From positions 1 through 48,322 of the forward strand of contig JAFGPC010000210.1 of assembly GCA_016926155.1 (NCBI GenBank): DNA of 48,322 nt, in the 5' to 3' direction. This stretch comes from Sedimentisphaerales bacterium. Lineage in GTDB: Bacteria; Planctomycetota; Phycisphaerae; Sedimentisphaerales; Anaerohalosphaeraceae. Within the stretch, counting starts at the first letter, position 1, and every line of letters begins with the position of its first letter. The position numbers were made by a program, and so were the translations under genes. Under the pieces are notes generated by a model. It was not told where the DNA came from. It did not search any database and saw nothing but the letters and a program-made list of their open reading frames with translations. Positions 2,658 through 26,457 of this stretch are shown here, piece after piece.

Positions 2658-4918
2658 TTCTCTCTCCTCTCGACAGGCAGATTAAAAAAGAATATTACTC
2701 CGGATTCAGGATTCGGCTGTATCCGGAGTTTCCCTCCGTGGTTTTCGATAATACGTCGGCTTAATGACAAACCCAGCCCTAATCCCTTTCGTTTTGTTGT
2801 ATAAAAGGAATCAAAAATTTTCTCTTCCAGACCCGGACGGATTCCCGTTCCGGTATCAGAGACCGAAACAATTACCTGGTGATTTTCGTGGAGCAGACCT
2901 ATCCGAATCTCCCGTTTCGTACTGTTTTCTTCTTCAATGGCATCCATGGCATTTCGAATAAGGTTCAAAATGACCTGCTGGATCTGGATGGGATCGACAA
3001 ATACCATCGGGATCTCCGGTTGTTCCTGAAATTCCAGTCTTATAGTATGAATTTCCAGGTCTTTTCGGATAAATGCAATGGATTCTTGAATCAATTCATT
3101 CATATTTACTGTCGAGCTTTTAAGCGTCCATGACCGCACAAAATTTCGTACCCGCCGAATTACATCTCCCGCTCGGATTGCCTGCCCATTCGCTTCATGA
3201 AGAGCCTCGATCATATCCGGATCGATCGCATTTTTCGAGGCTCGGACCATTTCCAGGGCTGCTGTTATTGTTGCCGAGATGGCGGATAAAGGCTGACTTA
3301 ATTCGTGGGCGATACTGGAAGCCATTTCTCCGATCTGACTCAGCCTTGAAGCATGCATGATTTCCTGTTCGTGTCTGCGCTGCTGTTCTTCACTCAGCAA
3401 TTGGTTTGTAATATCAAAACCGATTGCAATAAATACTTTTGGATTGGATGCTATCGGAATTAACGTCCACGACATCCAACGATAGTTGCCGTCTTGATGT
3501 CGGAAACGATGCTCGAATTTAATGCTGGATTGACGGGAACGGAGAGAATTGACGATCGAAAGACTTCGCTGCCGGTCCTCCGGATGGACGTATTCAACCC
3601 ATTGCTTATTAAAAAATTCTTCGGGGGGCCATCCGAGGATCGATGTCACCGCGGGATTGACATAACGCACTGATCCGTCGAAATTAACAATCGCCATGAT
3701 ATCGGGTGCATATCTGAATATCTGCTGCTGCAATTCTTCCGAAAGGCGTATTTCAGTTATATCCATGCCGGTGCCAATGATATACTCCACTGTTCCATCC
3801 GGGCGTCGTAATACTGAATTCGACCAATAGATTAAACGTCTCTTGCCCATCTTAGAGATCCACTGATTTTCTCCATCGACCTCCTGATATCCCTCGATCA
3901 ACGTTTGAAATCTCTTTTCAACAAATCCTCTTTCTTCCAAGGGGATCATCAGATCCAAAAGGGATTTGCCATTCAGTTCCTGTGCCGTATAGCCGGATAT
4001 TATTTCACAGTACTTATTGCATTGTACAAATCGGCCCTGATCATCCAACACAATGACAATCGATTTCAACGTGTCTAAAATGGCCGTATTGAAATCATGC
4101 TCCGCTCGAAGTTTTTTTTCGGCTTCCATCCGGGCGGTAATATCTCTGTTACAAACGCGGTAACCGAGAAATTCCCCTTCCTGCCCTGTAATAGGTCGAC
4201 ACGCATGTTCAATCCAACATATCCGGCCGTCTTTTGTGCATATTCGAAATGACAGCCGTTCGCCTACATCACAGTGGGACGTCTGATGGCGATGTTCCTG
4301 CCAGGTAATCCGGTCCTCCGGAAAGATCATTTCGCTTAAAAGGTTCGGATTCGCCTGAAACTTTTTAGGAGAATAACCTGTAATCTCTTTACAGGATGGA
4401 GACACATATACTATTTTTCCATCCATATCTTCCCAGTAAATCCAGTCGGACGTGAATTCGGCCAATGTCCGAAACCGCCATTCACTGTCCCGAAGCGCCT
4501 GTTGAGCTCTTTCCTTCAGAACCAGATCGCTCCAATGACGAATCGCCCGTTCGGCAATATCGCCCATAGTTAACAGGCATTCCTTAGTCTTGAGTACACA
4601 GTCCATCGCTCCGGTACGGATCATCTGCGGGACCATTTCCTCGTAATCCTGTGCTATCAGAACAATAACCGGAAATCCATCCGGGACCGTATTGTTCTGA
4701 AGAAAACACTGTCCTTCTCCATCCGGCAATCGTTCGTCAGATATCATCAGATCGATATGATTCGTCTGCAAATACCGATAGGCTTCTCGTATTGCTATTA
4801 CATGATGGACTTGAAATTGGCCCGATCGGCGAAGACTGCGCAGAACCAAAGCGGCATGCCCAGGATCATCTTCCACAAGGAGGATGCGGAAGGACATTAT
4901 ACTCATCTGTGTCCCCAT
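2654..4918 (-). CDS. FixL-like hybrid histidine kinase: receiver, three PAS, HisKA, HATPase
   Basis: Soluble sensor kinase of 754 residues with no membrane segment. Order: N-terminal receiver (about 10-125, phospho-acceptor D61 in LMISDERLPDG), PAS1 (about 145-265), PAS2 (about 275-395), PAS3 (about 400-520), then HisKA with the H-box SSIAHELSQPL and a catalytic ATPase domain (N-box NLIRNAMDAIEE, G1 DTGTGI, G2 GLGLGLSLS). A receiver at the N terminus ahead of PAS sensors suggests that it is itself a target of another phosphorelay. The H-box and PAS arrangement resemble FixL, but no heme-binding pattern could be assigned. Spacing from the nearest SD to the first ATG is long (17 nt); ATG at 4906, behind GGGGA, is an alternative start. 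It is the partner of the FixJ-type regulator overlapping its 3' end. Confidence 0.92.
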   Translation of the reverse strand: MGTQMSIMSFRILLVEDDPGHAALVLRSLRRSGQFQVHHVIAIREAYRYLQTNHIDLMISDERLPDGEGQCFLQNNTVPDGFPVIVLIAQDYEEMVPQMIRTGAMDCVLKTKECLLTMGDIAERAIRHWSDLVLKERAQQALRDSEWRFRTLAEFTSDWIYWEDMDGKIVYVSPSCKEITGYSPKKFQANPNLLSEMIFPEDRITWQEHRHQTSHCDVGERLSFRICTKDGRICWIEHACRPITGQEGEFLGYRVCNRDITARMEAEKKLRAEHDFNTAILDTLKSIVIVLDDQGRFVQCNKYCEIISGYTAQELNGKSLLDLMIPLEERGFVEKRFQTLIEGYQEVDGENQWISKMGKRRLIYWSNSVLRRPDGTVEYIIGTGMDITEIRLSEELQQQIFRYAPDIMAIVNFDGSVRYVNPAVTSILGWPPEEFFNKQWVEYVHPEDRQRSLSIVNSLRSRQSSIKFEHRFRHQDGNYRWMSWTLIPIASNPKVFIAIGFDITNQLLSEEQQRRHEQEIMHASRLSQIGEMASSIAHELSQPLSAISATITAALEMVRASKNAIDPDMIEALHEANGQAIRAGDVIRRVRNFVRSWTLKSSTVNMNELIQESIAFIRKDLEIHTIRLEFQEQPEIPMVFVDPIQIQQVILNLIRNAMDAIEEENSTKREIRIGLLHENHQVIVSVSDTGTGIRPGLEEKIFDSFYTTKRKGLGLGLSLSRRIIENHGGKLRIQPNPESGVIFFFNLPVERREK

Positions 4919-11900: not shown

Positions 11901-12929
11901 ATGAATGAATGGATAGATCAACTTCATTGCGTTGACTGCATCGAATGGCTTGGACGAATCGATAAGCCGTTTGCCGATCTGGTGTTTGCCGATCCCCCTT
12001 TCAATATCGGCTATCAATACGACAAGTATCGGGATCGGGTTAGGAGCGAGCAATACGTGGCCTGGACACAAGACTGGATGGCACAGTGTGTTCGGGTATT
12101 GAAACCACACGGATCGTTATATATCGCCATCGGGGATGAATATGCCGCCCATATCCGGCTGATCGGCGAGGAACTGGGGCTGTCGCTGCGTAACTGGATC
12201 ATCTGGCATTATACCTTCGGCCAACAGACCAAGGCCAAGTTTGCACGGGCCCACACACACATTTTCTATTTTGTCTACGATGCGAAGCATTTTACATTCA
12301 ACGATTTCGCTGTCCGCATACCTTCCGACCGACAGTTGATCTACAATGACAGGCGGGCCGATGCTCGGGGCAAGATGCCGGATGACGTGTGGAGTCAATA
12401 CTCGCGTGTATGCGGCACCTTCAAGGAGCGCTGCGGCTGGCATCCCTGTCAGATGCCGGAAATACTGCTAGCCCGGATTATCTCAGTCAGTTCAAATCCG
12501 GGGGATATTGTGCTGGACCCGTTCATCGGATCCGGAACGACGGCCATGGCAGCCAAGAAACTGGGACGACGTTTTGTCGGATTGGATATCTCCGAAAACT
12601 ATGTGCAAAACATACACAAACGGCTTTCCGACCTGGACATTGGATCGAAACCAAAACCCTCTGAGAACTTGTTTGACAGCGAACTGAACTGCCGGGAAAT
12701 TCTTGAACTGCAACGGTTATATGTGGAAATTGGGATCAACGCCGCAGAAGTATTGAATCAACCCAAACTGCTGAGCTTGTATGCCAAACAGTTCAGTATC
12801 CGTATGAATAATGGAAAAGAGTATCCGCCGGGCGATCTGGTCGCCTGTTTGAAGGAGTTAACCACTTGGATACCTCGAAAGCAAAAGGTCTCCTCACATC
12901 TACAATCCTCTTTGTCTGCTCAGCCTTAG
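11901..12929 (+). CDS. DNA N6-adenine/N4-cytosine methyltransferase, beta-class, solo
   Basis: S-adenosylmethionine-dependent DNA methylase of 342 residues. The catalytic motif IV DPPFNIGY (31-38) comes before the SAM-binding motif I DPFIGSGTT (206-214), the circular order of beta-class enzymes such as CcrM and HinfI. The central region with WSQYSRVCGTFKER and WHPCQMPEILL is typical of the family; a C-terminal extension (about 245-342) could bind DNA. No restriction endonuclease or specificity gene is next to it, so it is an orphan (solo) methylase, possibly regulatory. Its last 64 bp overlap the start of the following lnt gene, which suggests coupled translation. The target sequence cannot be told. 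Confidence 0.9.
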   Translation: MNEWIDQLHCVDCIEWLGRIDKPFADLVFADPPFNIGYQYDKYRDRVRSEQYVAWTQDWMAQCVRVLKPHGSLYIAIGDEYAAHIRLIGEELGLSLRNWIIWHYTFGQQTKAKFARAHTHIFYFVYDAKHFTFNDFAVRIPSDRQLIYNDRRADARGKMPDDVWSQYSRVCGTFKERCGWHPCQMPEILLARIISVSSNPGDIVLDPFIGSGTTAMAAKKLGRRFVGLDISENYVQNIHKRLSDLDIGSKPKPSENLFDSELNCREILELQRLYVEIGINAAEVLNQPKLLSLYAKQFSIRMNNGKEYPPGDLVACLKELTTWIPRKQKVSSHLQSSLSAQP

Positions 12930-15688
12930 CGCTGACGGTAATTCAGGTGCCGTATGGGATCAGTTTTCTGGCCTGGGTTGCGTGGGTGCCGTTTCTCGTG
13001 GCGTGTTTTTCTTCGTCACGGACGCGATGGCTTCTGTGGGCATCGTATCCGATCGCATTGACGCACTGGCTAAGCAATGTGTACTGGGTAGGATATGTAA
13101 CGATGCCGGCCTATATCCTGTTTTGTTTTTATCTGGCCCTATACTGGCCGCTACTGATTATAACGATTCGTTTTTGTGTCGAACGAATGAATATGCCGTG
13201 CCCGTGGCGAGAACAAAAGGGAGTTTTTCTTCAACGCCGATGGCCGGTTCCCCTGTTTCTGGCAATGGCGGTTCTGCTGGTGGGCGCTGAGGCCTGGCAG
13301 GGCATTCTGCTGACCGGCTTTAACTGGCGGTTTCTGGCACACAGCCAGTATAAGCATCTGGCCCTGATTCAGATTGCCGATCTTACGGGGCAGTTGGGGA
13401 TTTCCTTTCTCATTGCATTGGTCAATGGTCTTGTGGCCGAGTTGATTGTGAAAGGCCGGCGCATTGGATGGAGTAAGATGCTTCGACCAGGCAACGGTGT
13501 CAAGGTGCTTTTCGTGGGGAGCCTGATTGCCGCATCAATTCTTTACGGAAACCGGCGGATTAAACAGACGGATCAATTTGTTACAGATGGGCCAAAAGTC
13601 GGATCGGTGCAATCCAATATTCCATCCCAGATCAAGGAATTGGATGAGGCTGCCGAGCCGATCCTGCAGGACCTGATTCAGCGCAGCAATCAATGCTTTG
13701 AGGCGGGGGCTTTGCTGGTCGCCTGGCCGGAGACGATTGTACTGGCATCGCTGAATCCCGGGTATGTGCAATACTGCCGACCGGATACGCAACCGAGGCT
13801 TTTCAATGCGATGCTGGGAAGGCATACGGAGGAGAATCATGGGTATGTTCTGACCGGAGCCCATGGGGCCGACCTGGTTTTTGAGGATGACGAGCCGGTC
13901 ATTACAGATCGTTACAATACGGCATTTCTCTATCGACCCGACGGAACACAGGATCCCCAGAGATATGACAAGATCCACCTGGTCCCGTTCGGGGAATATA
14001 TTCCCTTCAAAGACACTGTTCCACCTTTATATAACCTGGTCATGAGCCTCAGCCCTTACGAATATGATTATCATCTGACGGCGGGAACGGAGCATACTGT
14101 TTTTGAGATCGACCAGTCCGGACAGACGTATCGTTTCGGAGTATTGATCTGTTATGAGGATACCGATGAGCAGATCACCCGCCGGACGGTGTTGGGCCGC
14201 TCCGGCCGCAAGCGGGTGGATTTTCTGGTCAATGTCAGCAATGACGGCTGGTACGTGCGCTACAGACCCCCTGCCGGGCCCAGTATCGATCCGAATGCAA
14301 TCACACTGCCGGATGGGTATCGACTCAACGAAGGAACCATTGTGCCCAGTCAGGAACTGGCCCAGCGGACGGTGATCACAGTGTTTCGAGCAGTAGAGAA
14401 CCGCGTGAGTATTTTACGCAGCGTCAATACGGGGATCAGTTGCCTGATCGACTCGGTGGGTCGGATTCATGATGATTTTGCGGCGGGTGATCTACCCAAA
14501 GAAGCGATGAAACGTCAAGGTATTGGGGGGTGGTTTGTCGATACGATTCCAGTGGATCACAGAATCACGGCGTTTAGCCGGACTGGTCCGATACTGAAAC
14601 ACATCGCCGCAGTCCTGTTTGCACTGGTTGCGCTGCCGGCGGTGTTCATGGAAAGGAAACGACGTATGAAGAGCAAGATTCTCTGGGCGACTTTTATCCT
14701 TATTCTGTTGGCCGTTACCGTCGGCTGCAATCTGATGGACGAGCAAGTCATACCGTCAGGAACGAGCCCTGAACCGTTTTCTTCCCAGGCCAATGCATTG
14801 CGGGATGATGCTCTTTCTCTCTTACGGAATGCCTTGACGAATGAGAACAGCTATATTCGGACCAATGCCATCGAAGTGGTCGCCGCGACGGATCGTCATG
14901 AGTTGATGCCGATAGTCACCAATCTGCTGCGAGATGAAATCGCCCCGGTACGATTTGCCGCAGCGCTGGCGGTGGGCGACACTACATATGAAGCAGGCCA
15001 GTTTGCTGCGCAGGAACTTTTAAACGATGTGGATGAACGCGTACGACTCGGAGCAGCATACGCCCTGGTCAAACTGGGAAAGACATCGTATGAAGACCGT
15101 ATCCGCACCGCACTACGCAACCGGGATCATACCGCCCAAGCCAATGCGGCGATGCTCCTTGGCAAGTTGGGGCATCGCAAAGACATTGTCCTTCTTTATG
15201 ATGTTTTAAACAGCACACAGGCCAACAGCCAGGTCCGGATTCAGGCAGTGGAATCGATCGCCCGGCTGGGAGATGACCGGGTGTATCGTGACAAGCTCTG
15301 GCCGCTTCTGATCAGCATCTATCCGGATGATCGTGTGATGGGTATTCGGGGTATGGGCGCTCTCGGAACGGAACTGGCCCGGAATGCGCTGTTAACGATG
15401 TTGCAGGATGATGTACAGGAAGTGCGACTGGCAGCGGCTGAACAACTTGGTCGGCTGGGGGACCGCAGTGGCGAGCAGGAAGTTCTGGATTATCTGGCTC
15501 AGATGCCAACAACCACAGAACAGACGCTGGTCGCCAACAGTCTTGCGACCCATGCGATTGGATCGATTGGGACGGACCGACTGAAGCCTTATCTTCCCAG
15601 ATTGTTGAACGACTCATCCCCGACGATTCAGCTCGCAGCGGCACAATCGGCACTTTTTTTATCTCCACATCCTCAAAGGAATCGTTAA
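12866..15688 (+). CDS. lnt: Apolipoprotein N-acyltransferase fused in frame to a HEAT-repeat lipoprotein
   Basis: One open frame of 940 residues. Residues 1-600 are Lnt, the inner-membrane enzyme that adds the third acyl chain to lipoproteins: seven or so N-terminal membrane segments, then a nitrilase domain with the triad E289 (AWPET), K369 (YDKIHLVPFGEYIPF) and C429 (LICYED), then a last TM (about 578-594). Instead of stopping, the frame continues through ERKRRMKSK into a lipoprotein-type signal ending VTVGC (C621) and about 300 residues of HEAT-like repeats (VRFAAALAVGD, VRLGAAYALVKLG, VRLAAAEQLGRLGD). The TTG start at 12866 has AAGGAG at 8 nt. Topology is consistent: Lnt ends inside, the basic linker stays inside, and HEAT lies outside. 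Either a true fusion or two genes that lost a stop codon; see the internal start. Confidence 0.88.
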   Translation: MDTSKAKGLLTSTILFVCSALALTVIQVPYGISFLAWVAWVPFLVACFSSSRTRWLLWASYPIALTHWLSNVYWVGYVTMPAYILFCFYLALYWPLLIITIRFCVERMNMPCPWREQKGVFLQRRWPVPLFLAMAVLLVGAEAWQGILLTGFNWRFLAHSQYKHLALIQIADLTGQLGISFLIALVNGLVAELIVKGRRIGWSKMLRPGNGVKVLFVGSLIAASILYGNRRIKQTDQFVTDGPKVGSVQSNIPSQIKELDEAAEPILQDLIQRSNQCFEAGALLVAWPETIVLASLNPGYVQYCRPDTQPRLFNAMLGRHTEENHGYVLTGAHGADLVFEDDEPVITDRYNTAFLYRPDGTQDPQRYDKIHLVPFGEYIPFKDTVPPLYNLVMSLSPYEYDYHLTAGTEHTVFEIDQSGQTYRFGVLICYEDTDEQITRRTVLGRSGRKRVDFLVNVSNDGWYVRYRPPAGPSIDPNAITLPDGYRLNEGTIVPSQELAQRTVITVFRAVENRVSILRSVNTGISCLIDSVGRIHDDFAAGDLPKEAMKRQGIGGWFVDTIPVDHRITAFSRTGPILKHIAAVLFALVALPAVFMERKRRMKSKILWATFILILLAVTVGCNLMDEQVIPSGTSPEPFSSQANALRDDALSLLRNALTNENSYIRTNAIEVVAATDRHELMPIVTNLLRDEIAPVRFAAALAVGDTTYEAGQFAAQELLNDVDERVRLGAAYALVKLGKTSYEDRIRTALRNRDHTAQANAAMLLGKLGHRKDIVLLYDVLNSTQANSQVRIQAVESIARLGDDRVYRDKLWPLLISIYPDDRVMGIRGMGALGTELARNALLTMLQDDVQEVRLAAAEQLGRLGDRSGEQEVLDYLAQMPTTTEQTLVANSLATHAIGSIGTDRLKPYLPRLLNDSSPTIQLAAAQSALFLSPHPQRNR
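14666..15688 (+). CDS. Possible internal start: HEAT-repeat lipoprotein (340 aa) within the lnt frame
   Basis: The ATG at 14666 (codon 601 of the fused frame) is preceded by AAAGGA at about 8 nt and begins a textbook lipoprotein precursor: MKSK, a hydrophobic run, then TVGC (Cys21). From here the product would be a stand-alone periplasmic lipoprotein of HEAT/PBS-lyase-type repeats, a scaffold fold with no catalytic motifs. The lipobox is imperfect at position -3 (Thr instead of Leu). If used, it gives both Lnt-HEAT and free HEAT from one gene; if not, signal peptidase II could still cut the fused chain before Cys621. It shares the frame of the preceding entry. Confidence 0.42.
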   Translation: MKSKILWATFILILLAVTVGCNLMDEQVIPSGTSPEPFSSQANALRDDALSLLRNALTNENSYIRTNAIEVVAATDRHELMPIVTNLLRDEIAPVRFAAALAVGDTTYEAGQFAAQELLNDVDERVRLGAAYALVKLGKTSYEDRIRTALRNRDHTAQANAAMLLGKLGHRKDIVLLYDVLNSTQANSQVRIQAVESIARLGDDRVYRDKLWPLLISIYPDDRVMGIRGMGALGTELARNALLTMLQDDVQEVRLAAAEQLGRLGDRSGEQEVLDYLAQMPTTTEQTLVANSLATHAIGSIGTDRLKPYLPRLLNDSSPTIQLAAAQSALFLSPHPQRNR

Positions 15689-16102: not shown

Positions 16103-16978
16103 TTGAGCGCTCTTACGAAAGTCCTGATTATTCTTCTTTCTTTTTCGTCCCTGTTCTTATGCGGGGCCATCGTGACATACGTAGGCTCTGCAAATAACTA
16201 CAAAGACTTGTATAGTGGTCAACTTTCGCAAAATCAAACTCTGAACGACAAAGTCGCCACATTGACGGCGGCGGCACAGGAACAGCGGATGATGACCGAG
16301 CAGAAAATCCAGGAATATGAAAAGCGGATCCAGGTTTTGACCGCGGATAACACCCAACTCAGTGTGGACTTAAACAACGCTCTTCGAGAGAGCATGGGAC
16401 ACCAGAATCGGGCCGACAAGTGGCAGGGTTTGCTGGAAAGTTACGGGCAGACAATGGCCAACCAGGAACTGACGATTAAGTCGATTCAGGAAAAACTGGA
16501 TGCGGCCCGGAGCCAACTGATCGAAGATGAAAAGCAGCTCAACCAGCAAACCGCCAGGGTATACGAGTTGACAGTTCAGATGGATGCGCTGGAAGCGGCT
16601 CGACGCCGAGCGGTTGAGGAGAAAAAGGTCCTGGAGGATAAGCTTAACAAGATCGCCGCCGCCGCAGGGGCAGAGCCCGTCAAGGTGAGCCAAGGTATTG
16701 TTACGCCGGAAAAAACGCAGGTTACAGCAGCGGCGGAATCCCCATCCGATGTCGATCTCAATGCCCTGATCAGTGAAGTGTATGAAAACCTGGCGACGAT
16801 ATCGATCGGCGCTTCAGACGGAGTGCAGAAAGACATGCGTTTTCATGTGACCCGGGGGGACGAGTTTGTTTGCGATGTGGTCATCACGCATGTGGATGCA
16901 GACAAGGCCGCCGGCGTAGTAGAATTGCAGCAGAAACAGGTTCGCGTCGGGGATAACGCCAGTACGAAACTGATGTGA
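16103..16978 (+). CDS. Membrane-anchored coiled-coil protein at the head of the mre operon
   Basis: Unrecognised 291-residue protein. One N-terminal TM helix (about 7-29), a long coiled coil (about 45-190, runs of E, K, Q, with leucine heptads such as LTADNTQLSVDLNNAL), an Ala/Pro-rich linker (about 190-210) and a small C-terminal beta-rich domain (about 220-291) containing GASDGVQKDMRFHVTRGDEF and a closing VRVGDN. The C-terminal part recalls the small beta barrels of MreC-like scaffold proteins, but this is only a resemblance. TTG start at 16103 with AAGGAG at 6 nt. First gene after a good promoter and upstream of mreBCD-mrdA, so it is a candidate envelope-elongation factor, probably facing the periplasm. 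Confidence 0.8.
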   Translation: MSALTKVLIILLSFSSLFLCGAIVTYVGSANNYKDLYSGQLSQNQTLNDKVATLTAAAQEQRMMTEQKIQEYEKRIQVLTADNTQLSVDLNNALRESMGHQNRADKWQGLLESYGQTMANQELTIKSIQEKLDAARSQLIEDEKQLNQQTARVYELTVQMDALEAARRRAVEEKKVLEDKLNKIAAAAGAEPVKVSQGIVTPEKTQVTAAAESPSDVDLNALISEVYENLATISIGASDGVQKDMRFHVTRGDEFVCDVVITHVDADKAAGVVELQQKQVRVGDNASTKLM

Positions 16979-17141: not shown

Positions 17142-17242
17142 CGACCTTGACGACAGCGTTATTTTGCAAATAATCGAGTGAAAGGACCCGGCCAGGAGGC
17201 CAATGGTCCGACGGGCCACTATCCGAATTGAAGGGAGTCAGA

Positions 17243-18298
17243 GTGATACTGGACACGATCTTGGGCTGGTTCAGTGTCGATATGGGTATCGACCTGGGCA
17301 CCTGTAACACTCTCGTCTGCGTTCGAAATGAAGGGATAGTACTTAATGAGCCCTCCGTCGTTGCCGTCCGTAAAGGGACTAACATCGTTTTAAACAACGG
17401 TGAGGCCGTAGGCCTGGTCGCTCGCGAGATGCTCGGTAAAACCCCCGGCTCCATTACCGCCATCCGTCCTCTCAAAGATGGTGTTATCAGCGATTTTGAG
17501 ATTACTGAAGCCATGTTGGGCTATTTCATCCGCAAGGTGCACGGTCGGGGTGGTTTAGTGCGTCCACGTGTTGTGATTGCGGTTCCCAGCGGGATTACGG
17601 CGGTGGAGCGTCGTGCCGTGATCGATAGTGCGGAACGGGCCGGAGCAAGGAAAGTGTACCTTGTCGACGAGCCGATGGCGGCGGGGATCGGAGCGGGTTT
17701 GCCGATCACCGAGCCGACGGCATCGATGATTGTGGATATCGGCGGTGGGACGACCGAGGTGGCGATCATGAGTCTGGCCGATATCAGCACATGCGAGTCG
17801 ATCCGGGTAGGCGGGGACAACTTTGACGAAGCCCTGATCAATCATCTGAAGCGGACCTATAATCTTCTCATCGGTGAACCTCGTTCCGAACAGGTCAAAA
17901 TCCAGATCGGATCGGCAGCACCAATGGAAGAAGAATTAACGATGGAAATAGCCGGGCGGGATACGATCTCCGGTCTGCCACGGAAAATCGTAATCACCAG
18001 TGAAGAGATTCGAGAAGCACTGCGTGAGCCGATTTCGGCAATTATCGAGACGGTGATGCGCACTCTGGAGCGGGCGGAACCGGAACTGGCAGCCGATTTG
18101 ATCGACAACGGAATGCACTTATGCGGCGGTGGGTCACTGTTGCGGGGGATGGATACGGTTCTGTCCAATGCCACGGGTTTGAAAGTCGTTCACGTCGATG
18201 ATCCACTGTCGTGCGTGGCAAGAGGGACCAGCGTGTATTTGGAAAACCTGGAAATATGGAAGGACACGCTGGATCAGACCGGATATTCATGGGAATAA
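17243..18298 (+). CDS. mreB: Rod-shape determining protein MreB
   Basis: Bacterial actin homologue that forms membrane-bound filaments guiding lateral cell-wall synthesis. From GTG 17243 (AAGGGAG at 5 nt; a TTG at 17228 is less likely) it has 351 residues, close to the usual 335-350. Seen: N-terminal hydrophobic ILGWF segment, phosphate-1 loop IDLGTCNTLV, connect-1 VIAVPSGITAVERRAV, phosphate-2 VDIGGGTTEVA, adenosine loop LCGGGSLLRGMD. The hairpin-prone GC-rich stretch just upstream (17197-17220) could affect translation. Followed by mreC, mreD and PBP2. Its presence implies an MreB-based elongation system, which not all planctomycetes keep. Confidence 0.96.
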   Translation: MILDTILGWFSVDMGIDLGTCNTLVCVRNEGIVLNEPSVVAVRKGTNIVLNNGEAVGLVAREMLGKTPGSITAIRPLKDGVISDFEITEAMLGYFIRKVHGRGGLVRPRVVIAVPSGITAVERRAVIDSAERAGARKVYLVDEPMAAGIGAGLPITEPTASMIVDIGGGTTEVAIMSLADISTCESIRVGGDNFDEALINHLKRTYNLLIGEPRSEQVKIQIGSAAPMEEELTMEIAGRDTISGLPRKIVITSEEIREALREPISAIIETVMRTLERAEPELAADLIDNGMHLCGGGSLLRGMDTVLSNATGLKVVHVDDPLSCVARGTSVYLENLEIWKDTLDQTGYSWE

Positions 18299-18406
18299 AC
18301 CGGCCTGTCACAAGATCGGCCGCAACATGATACAGACCTCGATTTTTAATTAGAGCCGGGCGGATTTCTCTACCGGAACCCATCCTTTGATGACGATAGA
18401 ACAAAT

Positions 18407-19246
18407 ATGGCTACCAATCAACGAAACATCTCAAGGGGAACCTTATTCGTGGTTCTGCTCCTGGGCGGGTTTTTCCTCCTGATGCTGCCCCAGCGATATA
18501 CGCTTTTCTTGACTGAGGGCTTTCACCGGATACTTGGACCGGTATTGAGTGTAGGACGTCCGACCGAAATTTCGAAAATCCATATGGTCCAACCCGGCCA
18601 AGACGCTGTTTCACAGGATACTTACAACAAATTATATACGATATATCGTAATACGTACGCCCAGCTTCTGGAAATCCAACAGCAGCTTAGCACATTGCAA
18701 CGGATTCGCGCGGGACTGCCGACACCGGGTCCGCCGTTGATTCTGGCACGGGTAAGCAACGCCATTCTAACCGCTGAAGAATGCGCTTTGCTGGTGATTC
18801 CCGTATCCGGTACGGAGGAACTGGAGCAGGGACAATACGTGATCGGGGACGACAGCGTGATCGGAACGATCAGCGCCGTATACAAAACCAGCGCCCGTGT
18901 GCGGCTGGTAACCGACGCTAAACATCGGATGCTGGTGGCAATCGGGCGTACCGGACGATCCGGATATATTCAGGCCTATATGCATGGCCAAGGAGACGGG
19001 ACCACCCGGATCGTTGGGTTGTCCCAAAAGGAATATGATGTGCGAGAAGGCGATGCCGTTTATGCAGCGGCGGACGGGGATCGTCTGGGTACGGAAGTGA
19101 TTATCGGTGAAGTGCGCGAGGTGCGGCATGACCTGGATAATCCGCTGCTATGGGATATTCGTGTCGTTCCTGTTTGTCAGGCGGAAAAGTTATCTGAAAT
19201 AGGAATTGTTGTGATGCATCCAAAAAGTGAAATAAAGTCCAATTGA
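18407..19246 (+). CDS. mreC: Rod-shape determining protein MreC
   Basis: Bitopic periplasmic scaffold that links MreB to PBP2. Residues 279: N-terminal TM (about 10-29), a short coiled coil (about 65-110, YNKLYTIYRNTYAQLLEIQQ) and two beta domains with the MreC-type features VIPVSGTEELEQGQYVIGDDSVIGTI (split across the first barrel) and the closing VREVRHDLDNPLLWDIRVVP. ATG at 18407 has no strong SD. It lies 108 nt after mreB, and its stop overlaps the mreD start in TTGA. Confidence 0.9.
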   Translation: MATNQRNISRGTLFVVLLLGGFFLLMLPQRYTLFLTEGFHRILGPVLSVGRPTEISKIHMVQPGQDAVSQDTYNKLYTIYRNTYAQLLEIQQQLSTLQRIRAGLPTPGPPLILARVSNAILTAEECALLVIPVSGTEELEQGQYVIGDDSVIGTISAVYKTSARVRLVTDAKHRMLVAIGRTGRSGYIQAYMHGQGDGTTRIVGLSQKEYDVREGDAVYAAADGDRLGTEVIIGEVREVRHDLDNPLLWDIRVVPVCQAEKLSEIGIVVMHPKSEIKSN

Positions 19247-19785
19247 GCAATTCAATGCGCTGGATTCGCTTTCTCTTTATACTGCTTATTATTACAGTGC
19301 TGGACGCAGGCAACCTGCTAAACATCATTGCCACGCCAGGTTTGCATATTCGGCCGGATCTGTTGCTGATTGCCATGGTATTTTTTGCCAGTCATCTGGA
19401 AACGACCAATGCGATGACAGTCTCGTTTTTGCTGGGCTTTGTGGCAGATCTGTCGGGAGAACTTTCGATTATGGGGCCGTACACAATCAGCTTTGGGATT
19501 TTCGGATCTTTGTTATGCCAGTTGCGCAAGGTAGTCCTGGTCCGACGAATGCTGTACCAGGCCCTGACAATATTTGTTATGGTCCTTCTGATCCGCGGTC
19601 TGGCTCAATTGCTGCTGATGCTTAAAACACAACACGTCGGCGCTAATGTATATATCGTTCTCTGGGGTACGGCGGCCTATTCGGCGGTGTTCGGGCCGTT
19701 TGCATGGATGATTCTTTCGGGATTGACGGACTGGCTGGGCCTTCGGGAACGGCCACGCTATGGGCCGATACGAATTCGGCATTGA
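19243..19785 (+). CDS. mreD: Rod-shape determining protein MreD
   Basis: Polytopic inner-membrane protein of the elongasome, 180 residues against a usual 160-180, with five or six hydrophobic helices. Typical early block: ITVLDAGNLLNIIATPGLHI followed by PDLLLI and a GFVADLSGE element matching the family's G-x-x-x-D pattern. TTG start at 19243 overlaps the mreC stop; an ATG at 19255 is an alternative. The PBP2 gene follows 2 nt later, so translation is probably coupled. Confidence 0.88.
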   Translation: MSNSMRWIRFLFILLIITVLDAGNLLNIIATPGLHIRPDLLLIAMVFFASHLETTNAMTVSFLLGFVADLSGELSIMGPYTISFGIFGSLLCQLRKVVLVRRMLYQALTIFVMVLLIRGLAQLLLMLKTQHVGANVYIVLWGTAAYSAVFGPFAWMILSGLTDWLGLRERPRYGPIRIRH

Positions 19786-19787
19786 GT

Positions 19788-21902
19788 ATGTATCGACAAC
19801 GACTGCATGCATTTGTGTTTTTCTGCGGGGTACTTCTGATCTCCTGTATTGGGCGTCTGGTGCACCTGCAGACGACGGGGTATTCACACAGCCTGAAGGA
19901 AATCGAAGAGGCACGTGTGCTGCCTCCAAGACAACTACCGACAGTGCGGGGCACGATCTGGGATCGTCAGGGTCGAGCGTTGGCCATTGATCGACCGACC
20001 TTCTATGTGCAAATCAGCTATCAGCTCACACGACTGCTGGATCCTCGTTTCAAGGAAGCTCGCCTGACTCAGTTGATGAACAAAGAAGAAGAAGACCTGA
20101 ATCGGGAAGAGGCGGAGGTGTTATTACAGGAAGAATTGAGCGCTGACTTACGTAATCTGTTTATCGTACTCGATACGTGCGCCGAAATGGCCGGGATTGA
20201 ACCAGACGAGATATATAACAAGGTCCACAAGATTAACGATGACGTATGGCGACTGGCTTTGCATATCGCATGGCGACGAAAAAATCCGGATTCCCCGAAT
20301 GTAAGCAACGAGGATAAAGGCAGGCAAATTACGCCTCTTGCCGTGCTCAAGGCCGATATCGGGGAAATGTACGACTATTATCCTTTGATAGAACTGGAGA
20401 CAGATGCAAAACAACTCAAGGCTCAGGTCGCTTTCGGCGAAATTAAAGGTGTCAGTATCGAACCTCTGGCCAAACGGACTTATCCATACGGTTCAGCCGC
20501 CTGTCACATTCTTGGCTGGGTGGGACCGGCAGAGCCGAATGAGAATCAGACGATGGATTTCGATGAGGACCGGTATTCTCGCTATCTTGGCGGGGAGGTA
20601 TCCGGAAAATGGGGGGTCGAGCGAGCCTGTGAGGTTATTCTACGAGGCAGACGAGGGGAAATCCAATTCAACCTGGACGATGAACTGGTGGATTTTAAGA
20701 AGACCCTTTTCGGCAAGGATGTCCATCTGACATTGGATATCGAGTTGCAAAAACAGTTGGAAGATCTCCTAAGTGATCCGAACGCCCGGTCAGAACAGGA
20801 TACCGGAATCGGTGCGGTCGTGATGGAAGTGGCAAGCGGGGATATACTGGCAATGGTTTCGACACCGACTTTTGATCTGTCCACCGTACGTAAGGATTAT
20901 GGGGATCTCGAAGCTGATCCAGCTGATCCGTTGGTCAATCGGGCACTCTTTCGGGACTATCCACCCGGTTCTACCGCGAAGCCGTTTATTTTGATTGCGG
21001 GATTTCAGGAAAAAAAGGCGGGACCCGATACGATTATCAGTTGTCCCATGGAAAACCAGAAGCAGTATCGATTTCCAAATTGTCTTCTCTTTCGCAAGGG
21101 TAGTTGCCATGACTGGCGCTGGCAGAATGAAGGAGGCAATATCGCCCGAAACGCCATTCGAGGCAGTTGCAATGTGTATTTTTCCCATTTGGCAGACCGT
21201 TTGGACGAGCGGCCATTACAGGAATGGCTGTTTCGTTTCGGTTTTGGGCGGGCAATTCTACCGGGGCCGAATCTGGATGAATACGCCGCTGAACTGGATC
21301 GCGAAAAGGGAATTGAGCGAAATCTGCCTCAGTCCACCGGTTTAATCAGTCGGATTCGTCCCAAAGGTCCGGTCCATACGATCGAGGATATCCCGACAAT
21401 CGGACACAACAGCGAAAACCGGTATATGGGAATCGGACAGGGTATATTCCGTGCGACGGTACTGCAAGGAGCCAATGGAATCGCAGCGATAGCACGGGGC
21501 GGGATTTATAAAAATCCAAGATTGTTCCTGGAAGAAAACGATCCGCACAACGAAACAGATCAAGTGGACCTTGGTTTATTTAAATATACTCTCACAACCA
21601 TCCGGGATGGGATGAATGCCGTCGTTTACAAGGCCGGCGGCACCGCTAATGAGACGTATAAAAACAGCAAACTCAAGGAGGGTAACCGCGGGTTGAATCT
21701 ATTCGGCAAGACCGGATCGACTGAGAAACCAGAACATGCATGGTTCGCCGGTTGGGCGGAGGACAATACAGGGAGGGCTATTGCGATAACTATTATAGTG
21801 GAAGGGGGTCAAAGTGGTGCCAGGGATGCCGCACCTCTTGGATTTGAAGTACTTCGTATCTGCAATGAAATGGGGTACGTCGGTCGCCGAACCACCGATT
21901 AG
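19788..21902 (+). CDS. mrdA: Penicillin-binding protein 2 (elongation transpeptidase)
   Basis: Class B PBP that cross-links peptidoglycan during elongation. From ATG 19788, 2 nt after mreD, it has 704 residues: N-terminal TM (about 7-25), dimerisation/pedestal region, then the transpeptidase domain with SxxK at S395-K398 (PPGSTAKPF), SxN at S460-C-N462 and KTG at K641 (GKTGSTEKP). It is longer than E. coli PBP2 (633), mainly through an insertion at about 100-215 rich in Glu. The mre operon ends here: no rodA follows. Its stop codon lies in a TTAG shared with the stop of ftsI on the other strand. Confidence 0.94.
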   Translation: MYRQRLHAFVFFCGVLLISCIGRLVHLQTTGYSHSLKEIEEARVLPPRQLPTVRGTIWDRQGRALAIDRPTFYVQISYQLTRLLDPRFKEARLTQLMNKEEEDLNREEAEVLLQEELSADLRNLFIVLDTCAEMAGIEPDEIYNKVHKINDDVWRLALHIAWRRKNPDSPNVSNEDKGRQITPLAVLKADIGEMYDYYPLIELETDAKQLKAQVAFGEIKGVSIEPLAKRTYPYGSAACHILGWVGPAEPNENQTMDFDEDRYSRYLGGEVSGKWGVERACEVILRGRRGEIQFNLDDELVDFKKTLFGKDVHLTLDIELQKQLEDLLSDPNARSEQDTGIGAVVMEVASGDILAMVSTPTFDLSTVRKDYGDLEADPADPLVNRALFRDYPPGSTAKPFILIAGFQEKKAGPDTIISCPMENQKQYRFPNCLLFRKGSCHDWRWQNEGGNIARNAIRGSCNVYFSHLADRLDERPLQEWLFRFGFGRAILPGPNLDEYAAELDREKGIERNLPQSTGLISRIRPKGPVHTIEDIPTIGHNSENRYMGIGQGIFRATVLQGANGIAAIARGGIYKNPRLFLEENDPHNETDQVDLGLFKYTLTTIRDGMNAVVYKAGGTANETYKNSKLKEGNRGLNLFGKTGSTEKPEHAWFAGWAEDNTGRAIAITIIVEGGQSGARDAAPLGFEVLRICNEMGYVGRRTTD

Positions 21903-23677
21903 CTGTCGGGCATATCGGCTGCCTTGGAAGCGACAGCTTTTTCCGGCAGTTGTCCGCCATGCATATATTTGAGGGTGTTTTCCATGATTTCACGAAAGAC
22001 CGGGGCCGCGACACGTCCTCCGGAGTACCCGATGCCCAGTGAACGATTGGGTTTACGAATGGAAACCAGGACAACCAGTTCGGGTTTCTCGGCGGGAGCG
22101 CCCCCGACAAAAGATGCGATATAGTTCTTCTCATCATATCCGCCCCCCTGCTCTCTGGGTCGTGCGATATTGGCGGTTCCGGTTTTTCCCCAAGTCTGGA
22201 TACCGGCTATTTTGGCCTGGTCCCCCGTTCCGTTTTTTATCACCTCAACCAGCGCCGTTTCTCGAAGCCATTTCGCGGTTTCCTGCTTGATCACCTGAGC
22301 GACAAAACCGGGATCGGGAGGCACGGGAAAGACCTGGCCTTTTTCGTCAATCATGGCCTTGACCAGATGGGGAATGACCGGATGGCCGTCATTGGCGATA
22401 ATACAGTAGGCCCGAATGATCTGGATGGTGGTGACTGTTAAGGCATGTCCGAAGGGGATGCGAGTGACAGTGTATTTATCCCAGACATTGGTCGGCCAGA
22501 CCACACCGGCATCCTCACCGGGCAGGTCGATGCCTGTCTTTTCTCCAAAACCGAATAATCGAACACCGTCATAAAGCCGTTTTTGCCCTATTTTCAGGCC
22601 GATTTTGGCCATACCGACATTGCTGGATTTGGCAAGGATCTGTTTGACGCTGAGATTTCCGTAGGGATGATTAAGGAATTCACCGATCTTGTATTGTGTG
22701 AAATACCCATTTTCACAGTAGAAGACATCGTTAGAACGAATAGAACCGGCGTCCAGGGCAATGGCAACGGCGATGGGCTTGAAAATACTGCCTGGCTCAT
22801 ATGGATCACACAAGGCACGGTTCTTCAGGGGCAGTTTTTTATCCTCCACATAGCTGGAATACTCGGAGGGAGCAAAGTCGGGCAGGGAAACCAAGGCAAG
22901 GATCTCCCCGGACCGAGGATCCATCACGATACCTACGGCCGACTCAGCCTGATATTTTTGCATCTGTTTAAGTAGGGCCTGCCGGACAAACTGTTGAATT
23001 GTCGCATCAATCGTAAGGACCAGTCCCGCTCCATTATGAACATCCCGGCTGTCATCCAGGGCCATACCGATCGGCCGGCGTCGGGAATCAACAACATAAA
23101 CTTCTTTTCCTTCCCGTCCCTCCAGCAGGGAATTGTATTTTAATTCAAGTCCGGCCACGCCTTCTCTCTTGTCTTCGAGGTATCCCACATATCCAACTAC
23201 GTGGGAGGTCAATGCCCCGCAAGGATAGATTCGCTCCCAGTCAGTCTGAATTCCAATGCCATGGAGATTGCACGCCTGGATTTCGTCCCTCTGGTCGGTT
23301 GTAATTCCCTCTTTGAGCTTGATATAACCGGGTGTCAGCCCACCATAGATTGCAGCACAAATCTCATGGCTGGGGATATCCAGAATCGGCTGAAGCTGCC
23401 AGGCCGCTTCTTTGAGCATGTCGGGACCGGGAAAACTGTTGCGGTCGGCAAAAAGGATATATTTTTCCTGGACATCGGCGAGGATACGGCCACGACAATC
23501 CATAATGGCCCCTCTCTGGGGAGAAACGGGGACAACGGCATGGAGTTGATCGTGAGAATGGAGGCGAGCATTTTGGGCCTGACAATATTGCAGGTGAAAC
23601 AGCCTCCAACCCAATAATCCAAACAGCAGCACCAGAAAGAGCAGGATCAAAATGATGGAGGGCTGTGTTTTTTTCAT
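21899..23677 (-). CDS. ftsI: FtsI / PBP3, division-specific transpeptidase
   Basis: Class B PBP for septal peptidoglycan, 592 residues. TM at about 8-28; pedestal with RGAIMDCRGRILA (about 55-67); transpeptidase domain with SxxK S297-K300 (EPGSIFKP), SxN S351-S-N353 and KTGT at 498-501. No PASTA domains. The start lies 1 nt after the ftsL stop (TGAAATG), as in a coupled dcw operon. It converges on mrdA with a 4-nt overlap of stop codons. FtsI rather than a second PBP2 is chosen because of its dcw neighbours (mraZ, rsmH, ftsL). Confidence 0.93.
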   Translation of the reverse strand: MKKTQPSIILILLFLVLLFGLLGWRLFHLQYCQAQNARLHSHDQLHAVVPVSPQRGAIMDCRGRILADVQEKYILFADRNSFPGPDMLKEAAWQLQPILDIPSHEICAAIYGGLTPGYIKLKEGITTDQRDEIQACNLHGIGIQTDWERIYPCGALTSHVVGYVGYLEDKREGVAGLELKYNSLLEGREGKEVYVVDSRRRPIGMALDDSRDVHNGAGLVLTIDATIQQFVRQALLKQMQKYQAESAVGIVMDPRSGEILALVSLPDFAPSEYSSYVEDKKLPLKNRALCDPYEPGSIFKPIAVAIALDAGSIRSNDVFYCENGYFTQYKIGEFLNHPYGNLSVKQILAKSSNVGMAKIGLKIGQKRLYDGVRLFGFGEKTGIDLPGEDAGVVWPTNVWDKYTVTRIPFGHALTVTTIQIIRAYCIIANDGHPVIPHLVKAMIDEKGQVFPVPPDPGFVAQVIKQETAKWLRETALVEVIKNGTGDQAKIAGIQTWGKTGTANIARPREQGGGYDEKNYIASFVGGAPAEKPELVVLVSIRKPNRSLGIGYSGGRVAAPVFREIMENTLKYMHGGQLPEKAVASKAADMPDS

Positions 23678-23678
23678 T

Positions 23679-23915
23679 TCAATGGACCGTTTGGTTCGGC
23701 TTTTTCTCGGGAAGATGTTCGGCCACCGAGGTCGGACTGACTTGATATTCCAGTTCCAATTGTCTTTTTCGCAAGTGTTCCACCAAACGTTTTTGCTGTA
23801 CCTTGGCTTCTCGATATCGGTTGAAAAGACGGCGCGGCGCAGTCCGTAAATATACAGTCCCGATCAAAATGGCCGTAAGATAAAACACCATGAACAGAAG
23901 TCTGGCGCGCGACAT
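23679..23915 (-). CDS. ftsL: FtsL-like division protein
   Basis: A 78-residue bitopic protein: N-terminal TM (about 5-24), then a short coiled-coil segment with the FtsL-type pattern LRKRQLELEYQVSPTSVAEHL (split as heptads at about 48-68). FtsL with FtsB and FtsQ activates FtsWI at the septum. Size, topology and place between rsmH and ftsI fit FtsL, but sequence in this family is poorly conserved. Starts 17 nt after the LysM gene and ends 1 nt before ftsI. Confidence 0.75.
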   Translation of the reverse strand: MSRARLLFMVFYLTAILIGTVYLRTAPRRLFNRYREAKVQQKRLVEHLRKRQLELEYQVSPTSVAEHLPEKKPNQTVH

Positions 23916-23932
23916 CGGTGGTTATCCGGATT

Positions 23933-24757
23933 TCAGGATTTCGGTAATTTTAAGATCAGCCCGGTAGGGATCGTATGTGGGTCTTTGATCTTATTTTTAT
24001 TCAGATCAAGGATTTCCTTGTATCGATTGCCATTGCCAAGCTTTTCCTGGGCAATATCCCATAGTGTATCATCCGGTCGAACGTTGTACGTGGCGTATAT
24101 CGTCTGGGGGGGCGGCGATGATTCTTTTTCGGCCGGCTTGTCCGCTCCCAAGCTGAAAACTCTCTCCACTCTGGCAAAAAAACCCGGTTCGGGATTGGGC
24201 AACGATTGCGTCTTTTCGACTTTTTGTTCGGTAAATAAATCGGGAATTGTCAGTTCCTGCCCCACTTTGATATCATGCTTATTCGGCAACTGGGGATTGG
24301 CCTGGTAGATCTTATCCACGACCTCGATCTTGTTTCCGAGGATGTCGCCGAAAATGGATTTGGCGATTTTGCCGAGGCTGTCTCCCGGTTGAACAACATA
24401 GGTTCTGGTTTTTCCTTTTACTTCAAGACCTCGTTCCTCCAGCGTTTCCTGCTCCTGCGTAAGAGAATCACCAGTACTTTTGTTTACCTGATGATTCTTA
24501 TTTTCGATGATGATCTCATGTTTGTCCGGAGGAGGAACCTTCCGAAGATCGATACCTCGGTCTTGTAGGATATCCTGTACCTCCTGCTGAGCGACCTGGT
24601 GCAGAAATTCCCCCTGCTGCTGAGGAGGAATGATCGGACTGTTAAGCTGGTCGACATCGCTTTCTTCCAGAACCTGCGGCAGGCCGTTGACCAGAAAAGC
24701 AATAATAACAATAAACACAAGCCCCAACAGCAGTCCAACCTTTGCATCCGCCGTCAT
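23933..24757 (-). CDS. LysM-domain membrane protein inside the dcw cluster
   Basis: A 274-residue protein from ATG 24757 (AAGGAG at 8 nt); an upstream in-frame start would run inside rsmH and is rejected. N-terminal TM (about 6-23), a charged Gln/Glu-rich stalk (about 30-115), LysM1 (about 118-173: YVVQPGDSLGKIAKSIFGD) and LysM2 (about 222-274: YNVRPDDTLWDIAQEKLG). LysM domains bind N-acetylglucosamine-containing glycans such as peptidoglycan. A LysM protein between rsmH and ftsL is not the usual dcw content, so it may be a lineage-specific septal wall-binding factor. The topology puts both LysM domains in the periplasm. Confidence 0.88.
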   Translation of the reverse strand: MTADAKVGLLLGLVFIVIIAFLVNGLPQVLEESDVDQLNSPIIPPQQQGEFLHQVAQQEVQDILQDRGIDLRKVPPPDKHEIIIENKNHQVNKSTGDSLTQEQETLEERGLEVKGKTRTYVVQPGDSLGKIAKSIFGDILGNKIEVVDKIYQANPQLPNKHDIKVGQELTIPDLFTEQKVEKTQSLPNPEPGFFARVERVFSLGADKPAEKESSPPPQTIYATYNVRPDDTLWDIAQEKLGNGNRYKEILDLNKNKIKDPHTIPTGLILKLPKS

Positions 24758-24779
24758 CCCTGAAACTCCTTGTACTGGT

Positions 24780-25703
24780 TCAATCCGTTTTGCGTTGTGC
24801 GATCCGGAGCCTGGCGCTGCGGGAACGTGGATTGGCTTTATTCTCGTCCGCGGCGGCCGTAATCGGCTTAGGCGTGACGATTTCGTAGATTCCCGCTGCC
24901 TGGTTCCGCTTGAAATCATGTTTCACAATCCTGTCCTCGAGACTGTGAAAACTGATCACCGCGATCCGGCCGCCCAACCGAAGCAGGTCCGGCGCAGCCT
25001 TTAACAATCTCTCAAGACAACCCAACTCATCATTCACTGCAATACGAAGCGCCTGGAACGTCCGCGTGGCCGGATGAATCTTCCTGCCCGGCCTTCGGTC
25101 CGGCTGACGCAACGCACGACAAACCAGCAATGCAAGTTCTGTTGTAGTCTGTATCGGCCTTTGGCGTCTTTGTTCTGCAATGAAACGAGCGATCCTTCGA
25201 GAAGCTCTTTCTTCTCCATATTGGTAAAGAATGTCCGCCAGCGTTTTTTCATCGGTTTTATTAATCAAGTCGGCAGCCGTTTTTTCCAACCGGTCATCCA
25301 ACCGCATGTCCAAAGGCATCGGTTGCTGGAAACTAAGACCTCGATTCGGATCTTCGATCTGGCCGGAACAGAATCCCAGATCAGCCAAAATAATATCCAC
25401 CTTTTCAATCGCCAATTGACCAAGGACTTTTTGGATATGGTCAAAGTTCTCCCGTACCAAAATGACCCGACAATTCAGTCCTTCGAGTCGTGAACGAGCC
25501 GTTTCAATACACTGAGGATCCACATCCAGACCAACAATCGTTCCCTCAGGGCCTAAACGACTGCCCAACCGCAGACTATGGCCTCCATATCCTACAGTTG
25601 CATCAACCATGATCGCATCCGGGGGGATACGGATCTGTTCGCTCAGGTTATCGGACAGAACCGATATATGTTTCGGAGTAGCGGGTGATATATGTTTATC
25701 CAC
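24780..25703 (-). CDS. rsmH: 16S rRNA m4C1402 methyltransferase RsmH (MraW)
   Basis: SAM-dependent enzyme that N4-methylates C1402 in the ribosomal P site. 307 residues, usual length about 310. Signatures: N-terminal PKHISVLSDNL, SAM loop VDATVGYGGHS, DVDPQCIETA, DLGFCSGQIEDPNRGLSF, TRTFQALRIAVNDEL and the C-terminal VISFHSLEDRIVKHDF. GTG start at 25703 without a strong SD, 55 nt after the 67-aa ORF. Standard position after mraZ in the dcw cluster. Confidence 0.96.
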   Translation of the reverse strand: MDKHISPATPKHISVLSDNLSEQIRIPPDAIMVDATVGYGGHSLRLGSRLGPEGTIVGLDVDPQCIETARSRLEGLNCRVILVRENFDHIQKVLGQLAIEKVDIILADLGFCSGQIEDPNRGLSFQQPMPLDMRLDDRLEKTAADLINKTDEKTLADILYQYGEERASRRIARFIAEQRRQRPIQTTTELALLVCRALRQPDRRPGRKIHPATRTFQALRIAVNDELGCLERLLKAAPDLLRLGGRIAVISFHSLEDRIVKHDFKRNQAAGIYEIVTPKPITAAADENKANPRSRSARLRIAQRKTD

Positions 25704-25758
25704 TGGATTACTGTGTTACGATTTCAGGTCGTATTTCTGGTGGATGAATCCCGTTCTA

Positions 25759-25962
25759 TTAAGCAAACGCCACTGAATTGGGTAGAAGAGACTCTACATT
25801 GGGAGAGAAACCAACATTAGAAAACAGCCGGCTGGAGGCCTTGAGCTGATCGAGTTTTTCAGCAAGCGAGACAACTGCTTCGGTCGTATGTTGGTCGATG
25901 CTACGCTGCCCGTTAATACTTTCGCTGACGATTCTCAAGTCATTGCATTCCATTGCAAACAT
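25759..25962 (-). CDS. Small protein between mraZ and rsmH (67 aa)
   Basis: ATG 25962 is preceded by GAGAGGA at 7 nt and lies 18 nt after the mraZ stop. The 67-residue product (MFAMECNDLRIVSESINGQR at its start, an Ala/Leu-rich helix in the middle, PNVESLLPNSVAFA at the end) is soluble and matches no family I know. Conservation of position in an essential operon and a good SD support a real gene. Function unknown. Confidence 0.6.
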   Translation of the reverse strand: MFAMECNDLRIVSESINGQRSIDQHTTEAVVSLAEKLDQLKASSRLFSNVGFSPNVESLLPNSVAFA

Positions 25963-25980
25963 GTCTTGTTCCTCTCTCAA

Positions 25981-26457
25981 TTACTCCAGTTCACGGCTTT
26001 GTTCCTGCAAAACGATCTGGCGTGCGTTCATCATCTGTTGCTGGTATTGAACCAAATTGTTTTGCAAGTATTGTTCCCAATCATCCGAATTCCACAACTC
26101 AATATGGTCACGAACGCCAACGAGGGTCAGGTTGTCCCCCAGATTCGCCCGTTTTCGTAATTTCTCACTTAATAGCAAGCGTCCCTGCCGGTCCAGCTCA
26201 ACCCTGCTGGCCAGGGCGAAACTCAGTCGTTCAAAGGAAACGGCTTCATCCGGGGCAGCCGTCCCTGGCGCACCGGCAAGGGCGATTCGCTGGAAGTATT
26301 TGGCCGGATAGAGGCATAGAATGCCGCTGGCACCGAGAACCAGGTAGAAATCACTGCCGTATTCTTCGGTATCGATCTGACTCCTGAGCTTATTGGAGAC
26401 AAAAATACGATTCTTGTCATCCAAAGAATGCTCAAACTCACCTGTTAACATCAACAT
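25981..26457 (-). CDS. mraZ: Transcriptional regulator MraZ
   Basis: AbrB-fold DNA-binding protein, first gene of the dcw cluster, which in studied bacteria binds direct repeats in its own promoter. 158 residues, slightly longer than usual (about 143-152) through the Gln-rich C-terminal tail. Two MraZ repeats: LTGEFEHSLDDKNRIFVSNK (about 4-23) and FALASRVELDRQGRLLLSEK (about 80-99) show the family's D-x-x-[GN]R[IL]x[LVI]P-like core. The first ATG at 26457 has GTGGGG at about 8 nt; ATG at 26451 would match the usual start of the family. Confidence 0.93.
   Translation of the reverse strand: MLMLTGEFEHSLDDKNRIFVSNKLRSQIDTEEYGSDFYLVLGASGILCLYPAKYFQRIALAGAPGTAAPDEAVSFERLSFALASRVELDRQGRLLLSEKLRKRANLGDNLTLVGVRDHIELWNSDDWEQYLQNNLVQYQQQMMNARQIVLQEQSRELE

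Follow-up and report, generated by a model that had tools for sequence, protein, structure and literature searches.

The window analysed here, a stretch of 48,322 nucleotides (contig C53 of G000, a draft genome of 5.0 Mb in 222 contigs), holds an lnt gene that continues in one open frame into the gene of an exported HEAT-repeat lipoprotein. Judging from this sequence and those of its relatives, the arrangement is probably a gene pair that was joined by the loss of the lnt stop codon, with the HEAT lipoprotein still delivered separately. A first-pass annotation of the same DNA had read this feature correctly and over-interpreted its function.

Organization of the Fused Frame

On re-reading, the single frame of 940 codons is recovered at the coordinates that the first-pass annotation had given, as are its numbering of the catalytic triad and of Cys621. 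The order that it had described, from a full Lnt through a basic linker and the TVGC motif to HEAT repeats, is matched by profile hits over their cut-offs (Table 1). Between positions 14640 and 14670, where a lost stop would be expected, there are zero stop codons in the window sequence and, as in a polyprotein, one open frame runs through both parts, in the window and in a second genome, G019. Regarding the first start of the frame, the GAAGGAG stretch of lnt sits within the methyltransferase frame, near its 3' end.

Table 1. Features of the lnt-HEAT locus, in positions of the window.
Feature	Position	Strand	Remarks
N6/N4 DNA methyltransferase gene	11901..12929	+	Shares 64 nt with lnt, which it precedes as a conserved neighbour
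Shine-Dalgarno-like GAAGGAG before the lnt TTG	12844..12865	+	Duplex energy -8.7 kcal/mol
Fused open frame	12866..15688	+	940 codons, TTG start, TAA stop at 15686-15688
Lnt part, residues 1-600	12866..14665	+	N-terminal membrane domain, nitrilase-like domain, last membrane helix about 576-597
Basic linker ERKRRMKSK, residues 596-604	14651..14677	+	From the sequence; predicted cytoplasmic loop, charge +5
Shine-Dalgarno-like AAAGGA	14652..14657	+	8 nt ahead of the internal ATG; -5.9 kcal/mol
Lipoprotein signal peptide MKSKILWATFILILLAVTVGC, residues 601-621	14666..14728	+	Own ATG (Met601, 14666-14668); lipobox TVGC (Cys621, 14726-14728)
HEAT-repeat domain, residues 622-940	14729..15685	+	PF13646 (HEAT_2) and PF02985 (HEAT) over cut-off
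Coiled-coil-like protein	16103..16978	+	Lies between HEAT and mreB; conserved there
mreB, mreC, mreD, PBP2-like transpeptidase	17228..21902	+	Conserved downstream neighbours

The Lnt Part

Residues 1-600 are, by their sequence, a complete Lnt with a predicted N-acylation activity. This part scores 210.3 bits against TIGR00546, where the cut-off is 132.9, and has the LNT_N domain (PF20154) at residues 19-189, over its cut-off, followed by CN_hydrolase at residues 244-465. The triad E289, K369 and C429 is invariant among 33 aligned Lnt sequences, and both the membrane domain ahead of the nitrilase domain and the last helix after it are present, as seen by PF20154, hydropathy and the structure model.

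Besides the fused frame, the same genome encodes another Lnt-like protein, diverged and 466 amino acids long (locus L123, G000:C221:5500-9500; ORF 1597-2997 on the reverse strand, in coordinates of the reverse complement). This organism may therefore have more than one Lnt-type enzyme. The second protein reaches 63.6 bits, which is under the cut-off of TIGR00546; by eye, it has Glu, Lys and Cys where a triad would place them, and its relative in contig C268 of G019 is apparently split over two frames.

A Second Fused Genome and the Origin of the Join

When HEAT-fused Lnt was sought in related genomes, a search that the first-pass annotation had proposed, one other case was found, making two fused genomes in all, G000 and G019. 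The search, run across the family, places in G019 one open frame of about 960 codons across query residues 3-933, 58% identical to the window protein. The join is in register in both genomes, with no indel, and the DNA sequences at their junctions differ. In a tree of the concatenated Lnt and HEAT parts, built by a quick method, the two genomes are sisters (SH-aLRT 99), separated by a path of 0.92 changes per site. These observations weigh on the possibility that an error of sequencing or assembly opened the frame, for which one could cite the draft state of the genome and the stop that relatives keep at the join; the error was nevertheless rejected and is very unlikely to be the explanation, because an independent sister genome of this divergence has the same in-frame join in different DNA.

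The unfused sister clade of the fused pair (G020 and G021) has the junction GAAAGGAATC-TGA-C-ATG. Aligned to it, the junctions of the window, GAAAGGAAA-CGA-CGT-ATG, and of G019, GAGAGGAG-CGA-CGT-ATG, keep the start region while the stop is gone, and the internal-start region of the fused pair still resembles the junction of the sister clade. A plausible history, read from few aligned bases, is that the stop turned into a sense codon and that a small insertion brought the ATG into the lnt frame. The fusion is a derived join of an ancient gene pair, and this join probably has a single origin: as the comparison supports, the simplest history is one loss of the lnt stop codon in an ancestor that the two related genera share. 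The open frame had also been considered as proof of selection for the fusion, and this argument was downgraded, since random linkers of 12 codons with the same base composition lack a stop in about 58% of cases.

The lnt-HEAT Pair Among Relatives

Junctions were read in 106 loci with both parts, all in one order; this set includes some near-duplicates, one genome twice and about 10 loci that entered on the strength of a match to both parts within a single frame. The HEAT frame lies 3' of lnt on the same strand in every locus (106/106), and two more lnt loci stop at contig edges. A stop codon stands between lnt and HEAT in 104 of the 106 loci, leaving 2 fused, and the HEAT core begins no more than 250 nt from the lnt stop in 98 of the 104 unfused ones. 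HEAT starts could be called in 83 loci, where 43 overlap lnt (19 of them exactly as ATGA) and 34 lie at 0-60 nt; ATGA-type overlaps and short gaps of this kind are typical of translationally coupled genes. The two genes are neighbours and probably also co-transcribed.

Further families of the class have the pair too (G316, G275, G163, G172 and G181). Outside the class, a few long Lnt frames were read (G464, G474, G504, G510 and G522), which are N-terminally extended and have no HEAT part within the frame. As the pair is widespread but the stop is kept in all but two loci, the adjacency of lnt and HEAT is old and the fusion rare, and the same count indicates that the pair works unfused. Of the earlier view of the fusion, its reality stood, as it recurs in G019, whereas its standing as a functional unit found no support, given the two separate genes nearly everywhere and the complete second start site kept at the join. 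Further fusions had been hinted at by long open-frame values in G015, G016, G020 and G039-G041, and likewise in G066, G080, G084, G112 and G172; a stop was found at the join wherever the locus was fetched and read, the long values evidently being read-through.

Junctions of another form were also seen: in locus L005 of G032 (3178-3183), the HEAT ATG comes immediately after the lnt stop TAA and shares its frame. Losing that stop alone would fuse the genes. The congener G031 has a short lnt/HEAT overlap instead, so this junction changes fast in evolution.

The Junction and the Release of the Lipoprotein

Hydropathy gives a hydrophobic segment at residues 576-594, then the +5 linker, then a second hydrophobic segment at 605-623, of which 605-620 precede Cys621, backing the topology with the HEAT part outside that had been proposed from the sequence. 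In E. coli Lnt, the chain after the last helix lies in the cytoplasm. Because a cytoplasmic Lnt C-terminus would meet a lipoprotein signal peptide that itself starts in the cytoplasm, the join would be tolerated: the signal peptide would enter the membrane as one more helix, which would leave the HEAT part outside.

The segment MKSKILWATFILILLAVTVGC, which fits a lipobox signal-peptide pattern (PROSITE-type), is internal if translation starts at 12866 and N-terminal if it starts at ATG14666, and the ATG, the Shine-Dalgarno-like stretch, the signal peptide and the lipobox of the HEAT gene are all kept in G000 and G019. Two routes may then release the lipoprotein, singly or together. In the first, ribosomes would start at ATG14666. 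The Shine-Dalgarno energy at the internal ATG is -5.9 kcal/mol in the window and -8.3 in G019, against a median of -5.4 at unfused HEAT starts, while internal Met codons have a mean of -2.0, with 7% and 1% of them as strong as the internal ATG of the fused genomes. In a codon-shuffle control that preserved the linker peptide, about 30% of the sequences had an equally strong Shine-Dalgarno in each genome (P ~0.3), and as shuffles of this Arg/Glu-rich linker reach the same strength so often, selection for the start site is unproven. The retained stretch was accordingly downgraded from proof of an internal start, and its pointing to such a start is suggestive only.

In the second route, Lgt and signal peptidase II would act on the joined chain before Cys621, after which Lnt would be left with a short extra membrane tail. 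Processing at this site, also raised by the first-pass annotation, is possible, as lgt and lspA genes are encoded in both fused genomes. Going further, signal peptidase II could be the sole releasing step, making the locus an obligate lipoprotein polyprotein that yields enzyme and substrate 1:1 from one chain. The intact lipobox and signal peptide, together with the presence of lgt and lspA, agree with such a model, but it has no need of the ATG and the Shine-Dalgarno-like stretch that both genomes keep, and it appears improbable.

The HEAT Part

The structure model of residues 601-940 (pLDDT 93.4, pTM 0.86) is a solenoid of helical hairpins, and structure and sequence searches with the HEAT part returned generic HEAT solenoids only, which argues for a binding scaffold. 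The HEAT part is probably such a scaffold, anchored in the envelope as in the unfused relatives. The fused chain, modelled with AlphaFold (pTM 0.67), has two well-folded parts with a low-confidence stretch at residues 620-637, the linker has a pLDDT below 50, and no confident docking indicates a fixed Lnt-HEAT interface. The generic HEAT matches and the model without confident docking give no specific support to the earlier suggestion of a chaperone.

These results also bear on whether the fusion works uncut, as an Lnt with one more membrane helix to which a periplasmic HEAT scaffold stays covalently tethered, delivering substrates or envelope partners to the active site. The frame has stayed open in two genera this far apart, joined without an indel; the genes lie side by side across the class, which makes a physical partnership plausible, and the predicted topology permits the arrangement. 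However, two genes suffice in 104 of the loci, a permanent tether would not need the signal peptide, lipobox, ATG and Shine-Dalgarno-like stretch that are all kept, frame retention is weak evidence where so many random linkers are stop-free, and the model docks the two parts without confidence. A working uncut form is, on balance, unlikely, and separate delivery of the HEAT lipoprotein is preferred.

About nine HEAT partners in the order have a signal-like helix without a lipobox by eye (L046, L047, L058, L066, L084, L099, L105, L108 and L109, chiefly from families f6 and f7); the partner in G181 looks alike, and L135 is also listed without a lipobox. In these, lipidation is apparently absent, yet the gene pair is retained. 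This weakens the idea of the first-pass annotation that the enzyme carries its own substrate: serving Lnt as a substrate cannot fully account for the pairing, because the pair persists where the lipobox is absent.

Gene Neighbourhood and Meaning

The order methyltransferase, lnt, HEAT, coiled coil, mreB, mreC, mreD and PBP2 is kept in 11 of the 12 members of the order that were examined; the exception is G143, whose retrieved stretch gave matches to the methyltransferase and to lnt-HEAT only. The coiled-coil-like protein matches no Pfam family and has a TTG start after AAAGGAGTAGG. Further on, at 21899-26457, a second PBP, rsmH (mraW) and mraZ lie on the other strand. As the locus order with the mre genes is kept, the HEAT protein could as plausibly take part in envelope elongation as act with Lnt.

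Gene fusion is often a sign that two products cooperate. A broader reading would take Lnt and lipoprotein in these two genera as one membrane chain, from which signal peptidase II releases the lipoprotein or in which the tethered HEAT part stays as a permanent Lnt subunit; the fusion would then expose a partnership of Lnt and HEAT throughout the class, linked to the Mre genes of cell elongation. This is possible, though doubtful. If Lnt did need or use a periplasmic scaffold in these bacteria, lipoprotein maturation would gain a new feature. As a rare derived state, the fusion has its value as a pointer to the conserved pair of lnt and an exported HEAT protein beside mreBCD in Phycisphaerae.

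Comparison with Known Systems

In the open-access literature, most subscription journals being outside this scope, no paper was found on an Lnt-HEAT fusion or an lnt-HEAT pair, nor anything relevant on Lnt in Planctomycetes or on internal signal peptides in polyproteins. Compared with the Lnt family (TIGR00546; solved structures such as PDB 5n6h), the window protein is alike in domain order, membrane domain and catalytic triad, and adds a C-terminal hydrophobic helix and a HEAT domain of 319 residues.

The closest counterpart of the HEAT part is the stand-alone HEAT lipoprotein that follows lnt in Phycisphaerae, which belongs to the same family, is 35-50% identical and occupies the same position; unlike the window fusion, it has its own stop-separated frame, and some members are without a lipobox. 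HEAT and PBS-lyase-like repeat proteins (alphaRep, CpcE/CpcF and deoxyhypusine hydroxylase) share the HEAT solenoid fold, but among the matches listed the overlap is partial, with TM-scores of at most 0.43 by query length, and a lyase or hydroxylase function of the HEAT part is not supported by these structural matches.

The joining of Lnt to the product of a neighbouring gene is already known from Lnt-Ppm1. In slow-growing mycobacteria, Lnt and Ppm1, a polyprenol-monophosphomannose synthase, are encoded in one frame (Rv2051c/BCG_2070c), and in fast-growing mycobacteria by two adjacent genes, MSMEG_3860 and MSMEG_3859 (PMC3850990). Both systems thus place Lnt in frame with the product of a gene that is separate but adjacent in relatives; the partner in the window differs in being an exported HEAT protein with a complete signal peptide and lipobox of its own.
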